Shown piece by piece: positions 1,610 through 3,709 of a stretch of 5,053 nt of DNA (positions are counted from its first letter, which is position 1; the number at the start of each line of letters is the position of its first letter). A program made the position numbers and the translations under genes. The notes under the pieces were generated by a model, which worked only from the letters and a program-made list of their open reading frames with translations, did no database searches and was not told where the DNA came from. Origin of the DNA: Solirubrobacteraceae bacterium (GTDB lineage Bacteria; Actinomycetota; Thermoleophilia; Solirubrobacterales; Solirubrobacteraceae); the NCBI GenBank assembly GCA_030447005.1, contig JAUJME010000136.1, positions 1 to 5,053 of the forward strand, written 5' to 3'.

Positions 1610-3709
1610 TCAGAAGAGCGCCTCCTGTCTGTGGCCGGGGGCGGGACCGTCCGTCGGCGTGCCCGCCGCACTGCGCGACGCCGCGGCCGCCCGCGCCCGC
1701 TGCTCTCCACGGCGGAAGAACCGCTCCTCCGTCATCCGCGACACCTTCGGCGCCTCGCGCAGCACCCGCTCGATGCGCTGGCGCTCGGCGGCCGGCGCGT
1801 AGGAGCCGCGCGCGTAGAGCTCCTCGTAGCGGTCGACGAGGTCGGGACGCTTCGCGCGCAGCCAGTCCATGAACACGTCCCGCGTCGCCCCGCGCAGGAA
1901 CAGCGTCTGCCCGCCGACGCTCGTGGCCCCCGCCTCCTCGGCGAGATCGAGGATCGCCTGGACCTGCGTGGGGTCGTCGTTGATCCCCGGCATCAGCGGC
2001 GCCACGAGGATCCCCGTGGGGATGCCCTGGCGGTTGAGCTCGGCGACCGCCTCCATCCGCGCCCGCGGGTGCGGGGTGTGCGGCTCGGTCGAGCGCCACG
2101 CGCGCTCCTCCATCGTCGGGATGGAGAGGCACGCGCTGAACTTGGTCCGCTCCGCGATCTGCCGGAACAGGTCGAGGTCGCGCAGCAGCAGCGGCGACTT
2201 GGTCAGGACGGAGCAGGGGTTCGCGGCGTCGCGCATGGCCTCCCAGATCCCGCGCATCAGCTTGTAACGGCCCTCGACCCACTGGTACGGGTCCGTGTTC
2301 GTCCCGAGCGCGACGTGCTCGCGCTTCCACGACGGCCGCGCCAGCTCCGCCCGCAGGACCTCGGGCACGTTGACCTTGACGATGATCTCGCGGTCGAAGT
2401 CGCGGCCGGCGTTGAAGTCGAGGTACTCGTGCGTGGGGCGGGCGAAGCAGTTGTGGCTCACCACGCCGTTGGAGATGAAGTCGCCCGTGCCCGTGGTGAT
2501 GTCGTAGAGCCGCATCGCCAGCCCCAGCGGCTCGACGGAGACCACGCGCGTCTTCGCGTCGGACTTGAGCGCCAAGCCCTGCACCGTCCGCTTGCGGGTG
2601 ATCGCCGGATCGGTGAGGTGGAAGAAGCGCAGCCGCTCGCGCAGCCCGCCGCGCAGCCGGATGTTGGTGATGCCGTTGGGACCGGCCGGCTCCTCGACCG
2701 CATCGAAGCCGAAGTGCTCCAGGCACGCCGCGGTCCAGTCGAGCATCGCTCGATCGCCGTTGGAGATTCGCAGCGCCGCGCCGCTGCAGGACCCCTCCGC
2801 GTCGAAGATCCCGGCGAGAAAGCCCTTGCGCCACGCGCCGCTGGGCGAAAGGGGCCAGCGGATGAGCTCCCTCACCTGGTCGACCGCCGGGGCCGACTGG
2901 GTCCGGATCGCGCGGATCTCCCGGCGTCCGCCAGCAGCTGCTGCGAAGAGGAAGGCGCCGGTGCCGACGCCCGCCTCGACGAGATAGCCCTGCGCACGTT
3001 CGAGGGCCTCGCCGTCGGCAAGGGCGAGCCGGAGGAAGCGATGGGTCCACGGCCGCCCGTTCGCGCGGACGTACTGCCGCGAGGCGAGGTGGCCGTCGCC
3101 GCGGATGAGCCCGCAGAGATAGCCGCGCCGGTAGTCCTCGCAGGCCTCCGGGGGGCGGGGCGTGTCGCCCGTCCCGAGCAGGGTGTTGTTCGTCGTCAGG
3201 TAGGGCCTCTGCCGAGCGCCCTGCGTGGCGCCGGTGACGTGCTTCCACCCCCGGTCGCTGAGGAAGCGATGGTCGCCGCTCGTGACGATCTGCGTCCCGT
3301 CCTCGAGCATCACCCGGTAGGCCGGCTTGATCGTGGACCAGTGGTCGAGCACCGTCGTCTCGACGTAGCGGCGGCAAGCGCCACGGACCTCGGTCCCGAC
3401 GATGGCGTCGCCCGGCCGCAGCTCGCCCATCGGGCGGGTGCGACCGTCGGCGAGCAGGATCCGGGTGTCCCCCGAGGTGCAGTAGGTGCAGGCATGGCTG
3501 CACCCCCGGTACGGGTTCACCGTCCACCCGAACGGCACGCGCGACGCGCCGGGCACGCGGTTGAGCGCCGTCTTCGCGCGGATCTCGTGGAAGCGCATGT
3601 CGAGCGCCTCCGGGGCGTCGAACGTGCGGATCACGAGGTCGTCACCCGTGCCCGGCAGCGACTCCTGCGGTTCTATCCCGACCTGCTGATCGTCCCAGCG
3701 CACGAACAC
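1610..3709 (-). CDS. Intein-containing SplB-like radical SAM protein (Rv2578c-like family)
   Basis: A 699-residue precursor in one uninterrupted frame; removing the 344-residue intein leaves a 355-residue host enzyme, close to what I recall for mycobacterial Rv2578c (about 340). The host parts are residues 1-76 and 421-699. Spliced, the cluster motif reads GCSHACTY+CFARPTHEYL, i.e. C70-x3-C74-x2-C421, which binds a 4Fe-4S cluster that cleaves S-adenosylmethionine. Other family blocks are GTNTDPYQ (469-476), LTKS (502-505), EPHTPHPR (542-549) and PLMPGINDD (571-579). The fold is related to COG1533 (SplB), but no cysteine lies near 44 residues after the cluster, where spore photoproduct lyase has its H-donor Cys; the next is C499. 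The substrate is unknown. The tail after about 665 is low-complexity and ends QEALF. The start is uncertain: GTG 3709 is used here, GTG 3703 or 3730 are alternatives, and none has a clear Shine-Dalgarno. It follows miaB by 24 bases, so it is probably the same operon. Confidence 0.9.
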   Translation of the reverse strand: MFVRWDDQQVGIEPQESLPGTGDDLVIRTFDAPEALDMRFHEIRAKTALNRVPGASRVPFGWTVNPYRGCSHACTYCTSGDTRILLADGRTRPMGELRPGDAIVGTEVRGACRRYVETTVLDHWSTIKPAYRVMLEDGTQIVTSGDHRFLSDRGWKHVTGATQGARQRPYLTTNNTLLGTGDTPRPPEACEDYRRGYLCGLIRGDGHLASRQYVRANGRPWTHRFLRLALADGEALERAQGYLVEAGVGTGAFLFAAAAGGRREIRAIRTQSAPAVDQVRELIRWPLSPSGAWRKGFLAGIFDAEGSCSGAALRISNGDRAMLDWTAACLEHFGFDAVEEPAGPNGITNIRLRGGLRERLRFFHLTDPAITRKRTVQGLALKSDAKTRVVSVEPLGLAMRLYDITTGTGDFISNGVVSHNCFARPTHEYLDFNAGRDFDREIIVKVNVPEVLRAELARPSWKREHVALGTNTDPYQWVEGRYKLMRGIWEAMRDAANPCSVLTKSPLLLRDLDLFRQIAERTKFSACLSIPTMEERAWRSTEPHTPHPRARMEAVAELNRQGIPTGILVAPLMPGINDDPTQVQAILDLAEEAGATSVGGQTLFLRGATRDVFMDWLRAKRPDLVDRYEELYARGSYAPAAERQRIERVLREAPKVSRMTEERFFRRGEQRARAAAASRSAAGTPTDGPAPGHRQEALF
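2447..2452 (-). other. C-terminal splice junction (N420 / C421)
   Basis: The codons AAC (N420, last intein residue) and TGC (C421, first residue of the C-extein) meet here. C421 is both the +1 splicing nucleophile and the third ligand of the host iron-sulfur cluster. The matching N-terminal junction is between Y76 (codon 3484-3482) and C77 (3481-3479). Joining the two gives ACTYCFARP, the expected radical SAM sequence. Confidence 0.92.
2450..3481 (-). mobile_element. Intein with LAGLIDADG homing endonuclease
   Basis: This 344-residue intein (precursor residues 77-420) is inserted in frame. The N-terminal splicing block begins CTSGDTRIL (C77 = intein Cys1). Block B is VTSGDHRFL with H147. The C-terminal blocks are RLYDITTGTGDFIS (400-413) and NGVVSHN (414-420), with penultimate H419 and terminal N420 for asparagine cyclisation, followed by +1 nucleophile C421. 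This is a class 1 arrangement with every splicing nucleophile present. Between the Hint halves lies an endonuclease with two dodecapeptide motifs. Cleavage at both ends rebuilds a canonical radical SAM motif in the host, which fixes the boundaries exactly. A/T-ending codons (GCA, GCT, GGA, CTT, TTT, CGA, TAT, GAT) are commoner here than in the flanking host gene or miaB, consistent with acquisition by homing. Intein-bearing members of this family are known, so the insertion site is probably recurrent. Confidence 0.95.
2615..3142 (-). other. LAGLIDADG homing endonuclease domain (inside intein)
   Basis: The domain spans about residues 190-365 of the precursor; its edges are approximate. The two dodecapeptide motifs are LCGLIRGDG (residues 198-206, bases 3092-3118) and LAGIFDAEG (298-306, bases 2792-2818). 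The metal-binding acidic residues at position 8 of each motif, D205 and E305, are both retained, and a lysine (K295) precedes the second. This is a single-chain, two-motif enzyme that would cut the intein-less allele of the host gene at the insertion site, allowing copying by repair. Retained catalytic residues suggest it is still active or only recently relaxed from selection; cleavage activity cannot be shown from sequence. Confidence 0.88.

Follow-up and report, generated by a model that had tools for sequence, protein, structure and literature searches.

Why does a radical SAM enzyme present its cluster-binding motif, CX3CX2C, twice in one polypeptide? This question is raised by an open reading frame of 699 amino acids with a GTG start (1610–3709, reverse strand) in the window, i.e., the whole stretch of 5,053 nucleotides that was analyzed. 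The encoded protein belongs to the radical SAM type, is close to the Rv2578c family, and contains an in-frame intein. The precursor reads C70-x3-C74-x2-C77, in which C70 (3500–3502, reverse strand) is the first cluster ligand, C74 (3488–3490, reverse strand) provides the second cluster ligand and occupies extein position −3, and C77 (3479–3481, reverse strand) is residue 1 of the intein itself, its first nucleophile, aligned with the third motif position. The preliminary description gave these residue numbers exactly and regarded C77 as a decoy that mimics the missing third ligand.

The radical SAM identity of the host protein was indicated by CX3CX2C, which appears as CSHACTYC in the joined exteins, and by a Radical_SAM domain (Pfam PF04055) at residues 455–580 (34.9 bits, cut-off 29.5), with the cysteine motif lying outside this match. 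A predicted model of the precursor matched the spore photoproduct lyase fold, with extein segments from either side of the intein contributing to the match, and a PDB sequence search with an intein-less homologue yielded no match at E 0.1. The top NCBIfam match of the open reading frame was NF038136, "intein-containing Rv2578c family radical SAM protein" (E 6.1e-209), of which positions 1–562 of 574 were covered; its 695.6 bits were just below the 700-bit cut-off. The NF038135 score was 395.1 bits, below the 430-bit cut-off, which was exceeded in none of the 249 genomes of the Paraconexibacter class. We therefore term the protein close to the Rv2578c family and not a member of it. Two homologues (P0021 and P0060) among the best 120 of 7993 scored bear the name of that family.

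The intein comprises residues 77–420 (2450–3481, reverse strand) and contains a LAGLIDADG endonuclease domain. It is flanked by the N-extein (residues 1–76; 3482–3709, reverse strand), delimited by alignment with intein-less homologues, and by the C-extein (residues 421–699 and the stop codon; 1610–2449, reverse strand), which opens with C421 (2447–2449, reverse strand), both the +1 nucleophile and the genuine third ligand of the cluster. The TIGR01445 intein_Nterm match begins at residue 77 (24.8 bits, cut-off 24.5), and the Pfam Intein_splicing match, at 25.7 bits below its cut-off of 35.8, ends at residue 420. In intein-less homologues, the NF038136 match mostly begins at position 335, the start of the C-extein. 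To compare the junction directly, the window exteins were joined by a script and aligned with intein-less proteins from a search with the intein-less homologue L003, the best 120 homologues of which (7998 scored) consisted of 113 intein-less and 7 intein-containing proteins. Spliced residues 60–95 aligned without a gap to all 113 intein-less proteins, and the third motif residue was Cys in every one of them. The exact string CSHACTYCFARP occurred in 8 of the 113, and the commonest other strings varied at variable positions within the motif. In a MAFFT alignment of 100 intein-bearing and intein-less rows, the third Cys aligned at C421 and was invariant; C70 and C74 were invariant in this alignment and in that of 55 intein-bearing precursors. 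These results confirmed the boundaries in the preliminary description (an intein of 344 amino acids and joined exteins of 355), agreed with its expectation that removal of residues 77–420 leaves no gap, and supported C421 as the restored third ligand; the outcome in intein-less homologues that it had named as a refutation did not occur. The interval 2447–3490 that it assigned to the feature does span the codons from C421 to C74, but the intein itself is shorter and the C70 codon lies outside.

We consider it very probable that a mobile LAGLIDADG intein was inserted directly before the third Cys of CX3CX2C, that standard splicing restores the motif, and that the motif formed with C77 is automatic. 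In the proposed mechanism, an intein of the class 1 type with a LAGLIDADG homing endonuclease would have entered at this point; C77 would form a thioester with Tyr76, the acyl group would pass to C421, and Asn420 would cyclize and free the 344-residue intein, with C421 becoming the third [4Fe-4S] ligand of the 355-residue enzyme. The occurrence of splicing, cutting by the endonuclease, inactivity of the precursor, and the reason for the use of this site are points that we infer. The site may suit an intein because of its strongly conserved coding sequence and the Cys available at +1.

Of the residues expected of a class 1 intein, C77, H147, D403, N420, and C421 were found in the window, and the position of the block B Thr is occupied by Ser. 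In PMC10663303, TXXH is named as the common block B motif; the window has S144-G-D-H147 (3269–3280, reverse strand). This substitution, together with at least two other copies that appear frame-shifted (L083 inside the intein, and the intein-less L086 at the motif), could be taken to indicate that the insert is a relic that no longer splices and that the gene is non-functional. We regard this as extremely improbable because the window open reading frame is intact with all nucleophiles, extein columns are strongly conserved across the 55 intein-bearing precursors, and the block B Ser is common among relatives. The latter was examined in 179 intein-bearing records representing 173 distinct inteins, that of the window among them. 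For the classification, Cys at the first two motif positions and Asn preceding +1 were demanded by the script, which left intein residue 1, +1, and His free. Block B had Ser in 166 of the 173 distinct inteins (SGDH in 150 and SADH in 15), and all 173 had Cys at residue 1 and at +1 and ended in His-Asn (His419-Asn420 in the window; 2450–2455, reverse strand). Block F Asp403 (2501–2503, reverse strand) was invariant in the 55-precursor alignment. Eleven of 128 loci fell outside the classification, including L009, L038, and L088; on reading, L083, L119, and L120 showed intein junctions or intein halves, L085 showed only an N-side intein junction and L014 a C-side one, L086 was a frame-shifted intein-less copy, and L028 and L066 lacked the intein and differed slightly on the C-side.

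The invariance of Cys1 and Cys+1 is also what splicing chemistry demands. The decoy as a selected feature was rejected on this point: an invariant Cys1 is expected whether selection acts on a ligand or on splicing, and all of the inteins compared are related and occupy a single site. More generally, wherever a Cys1 intein inserts immediately in front of a Cys, that Cys is duplicated, and, thus, the mimicry is uninformative in itself. The decoy as a special feature of this locus was not supported, and the apparent C77 motif is best understood as an automatic result of the insertion site. Another part of the earlier claim was supported: the real CX3CX2C loop would be completed only by splicing.

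In a stronger version of the decoy, iron or a [4Fe-4S] cluster would be held in the precursor by C70, C74, and C77, and splicing would be delayed until the cluster is removed or passed to C421. The precursor does contain a formal CX3CX2C, and structure prediction leaves the choice of ligand open, since the barrel around the intein was largely confident in the second precursor model and the cluster loop (69–74 and 422–438) had a pLDDT below 50. The pTM of this model was 0.50, and the relative placement of its domains was unsure. The first model, built from the 55 precursors, had a mean pLDDT of 68.1 and a pTM of 0.50, with the N-extein and the start of the C-extein below 50; inteins, homing endonucleases, and WhiA were among the 50 Foldseek matches listed for it. 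Intein residue 1 is situated in the intein active site. A cluster bound there would compete with the splicing chemistry, no computed result favored binding by C77, and the pattern is automatic in any case. The inhibition of inteins by metals that bind active-site residues is described in PMC10663303 and is compatible with metal binding at C77; nevertheless, we consider this role of C77 to be very unlikely. The precursor is likely to be without its real active site before splicing.

The window intein contains two LAGLIDADG motifs with acidic residues, the sequence criterion for a homing intein: LCGLIRGDG at residues 198–206 (3092–3118, reverse strand) with D205, and LAGIFDAEG at residues 298–306 (2792–2818, reverse strand) with E305, the latter motif within a Pfam LAGLIDADG_3 match at residues 294–342. 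D205 and E305 were invariant in the 55 aligned precursors. By our own patterns, 132 of the 159 distinct inteins with 280 or more amino acids contained motif 1 and 149 contained motif 2, and 11 distinct inteins shorter than 160 amino acids occupied the same site without endonuclease motifs. The intein of L084, also at this site, has 448 amino acids, approximately 100 more than most others.

The distribution of the intein was examined in 396 genomes of the phylum of Paraconexibacter antarcticus (G002). NF038136 matched 115 of these genomes at 1e-60; by match span and junction reading, counted manually, the insert was present in 35 and the remaining 80 were intein-less. In the class of the same genome, NF038135 matched 122 of 249 genomes at E 0.001, with an insert in 16 (by span, manual count). 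A different kind of host was found in 7 of the 35 carriers (L106–L112) and in one further case split over two contigs (L119 and L120). Five of the seven were scanned (L106, L107, L109, L111, and L112) and were assigned to the PA0069 family with 448.5–468.7 bits (cut-off 360); their scores for Rv2578c were far below the cut-off of that family. Compared with the window, L106–L112 were 54–57% identical in the intein and 32–35% identical in the extein. Among other groups, the phylum of G011 yielded relatives of the intein in 1 of 249 genomes, which was G011 itself. The contig concerned (L014, G011:C33) is labelled Sphingosinicella and carries an intein-bearing gene of the Solirubrobacterales type; it is probably a misbinned metagenome contig. 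No relative was found in 151 genomes of the phylum of G008 in a search run without a positive control. Weak partial matches were present in 122 of 50,697 phage records, none of which covered 80% of the query (the 15 matches listed had 39% query coverage and approximately 30% identity). Homologues of L106 were found in 52 of 72,556 plasmid records, and the 10 matches listed covered 47–49% of the intein-bearing query.

On a host tree of 110 sequences, for which intein-bearing genes were taken by preference and which is, thus, not a random sample, at least 24 changes in intein state were needed, 13 of which were forced by well-supported (starred) branches. Shuffled labels required 36.8 changes on average, and 0 of 500 shuffles needed as few as observed. 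The presence of the intein was both patchy and clustered on this tree. The clustering may reflect vertical inheritance or near copies for part of the presence, and homing alone does not account for the distribution. Extein and intein identities in 54 genes showed a correlation of 0.10, which was matched by 43 of 500 shuffles, and the nearest relative was the same for extein and intein in 21 of the 54 genes. Based on the conserved LAGLIDADG acids, the patchy distribution, the weak agreement with the host, and the use of the same site in the PA0069 family, the intein resembles a homing element. The pattern of its spread is what would be expected of such an element with some vertical inheritance, and would still be compatible with a function in some hosts.

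One such function would be a maturation checkpoint, in which C70, C74, and C77 sense redox state or cluster supply, C77 is freed only when a cluster may be installed with C421, and the intein is kept for this purpose in at least some hosts. We consider this to be quite unlikely. The presence of one intein at exactly this Cys in two radical SAM families and of endonuclease-free mini-inteins is compatible with a checkpoint, and also with a selfish element.

The neighboring genes were also examined. Another radical SAM gene, miaB (TIGR01574; 3734–5050, reverse strand), shares the strand of the intein-bearing gene and ends 24 bases before it. Of the 44 loci at which the gene was positioned by the script, 11 had a miaB motif upstream, with little upstream DNA available at some loci; all 11 were on contigs named Solirubrobacterales or families of that kind. 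On the forward strand, a FIST-domain protein (1–736), which runs off the start of the window, and a short-chain dehydrogenase (733–1530) are encoded, and both are unrelated to the intein. The GTG at 733–735 overlaps the stop codon TGA at 734–736. According to PMC12924846, the phage Samy integrates inside Streptomyces SAM40697_5543, an Rv2578c-family radical SAM gene; thus, this gene family is targeted by a phage as well as by an intein.

The pair of host and intein is already modeled by NCBI curators as NF038136. The host family and intein are the same, and, apart from the score of the window just below the cut-off, we found no difference of kind. No paper on the Rv2578c host-intein pair was found in the literature searched, which covered few subscription papers, and none on inteins in Solirubrobacter. 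The intein of the PA0069 family is located at the same point before the third Cys as that of the window in a different host family. A related intein at the same point suggests, from sequence comparison, a jump between two enzyme families, and its occurrence in these hosts, to which the name of NF038136 does not extend, may be a minor novelty. Full-length, mini, and intein-less alleles in close relatives form a large natural set in which a cluster-binding motif is interrupted or spared in two enzyme families. Iron-sulfur biology is also represented by the host protein of the Mycobacterium tuberculosis SufB intein (PMC8891592), the splicing of which is crucial for function according to the title of a paper cited there; however, SufB is a cluster assembly protein and not a radical SAM enzyme.

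The closest precedent is the MoaA intein of Pyrococcus abyssi, which has the Cys-3/Cys1 spacing of C74-x2-C77. MoaA, too, is a radical SAM enzyme and carries this motif. The redox trap of its intein was reportedly described by Callahan et al. in 2011. In PMC10663303 and PMC3922620, a disulfide between extein Cys-3 and intein Cys1 is stated to block splicing. Since that pair is reported as a splicing-blocking disulfide in an oxygen-labile enzyme, reading C74 and C77 as Cys-3 and Cys1 would, by analogy, be more useful than the decoy. In the window, both cysteines of a redox-trapped intein are present; under oxidizing conditions, a C74–C77 CXXC disulfide would block the first splicing step, and the oxygen-labile enzyme would be made only in a reducing cell. 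Such a gate could hold on top of the insertion of a mobile intein; we regard it as unlikely. The pair occurs in all 173 distinct inteins, for which the script required the −3 Cys, and this Cys is dictated by the host motif; therefore, its conservation does not point to a switch under selection. Relatives without the intein are common, as shown by the best homologues of L003 and the genomes matched in the phylum, which indicates that the enzyme is retained without a gate. No redox effect was reported for the Rv2578c intein in the literature searched. Redox gating by Cys-3/Cys1 inteins rests, in the sources consulted, on the one natural case of P. abyssi MoaA, and the bacterial enzymes described here could offer a test. 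Overall, the locus looks like ordinary intein biology, i.e., a further example of a known arrangement and not a new device. Its likeness to P. abyssi MoaA, which belongs to another enzyme family and organism, lies in the Cys-3/Cys1 spacing.
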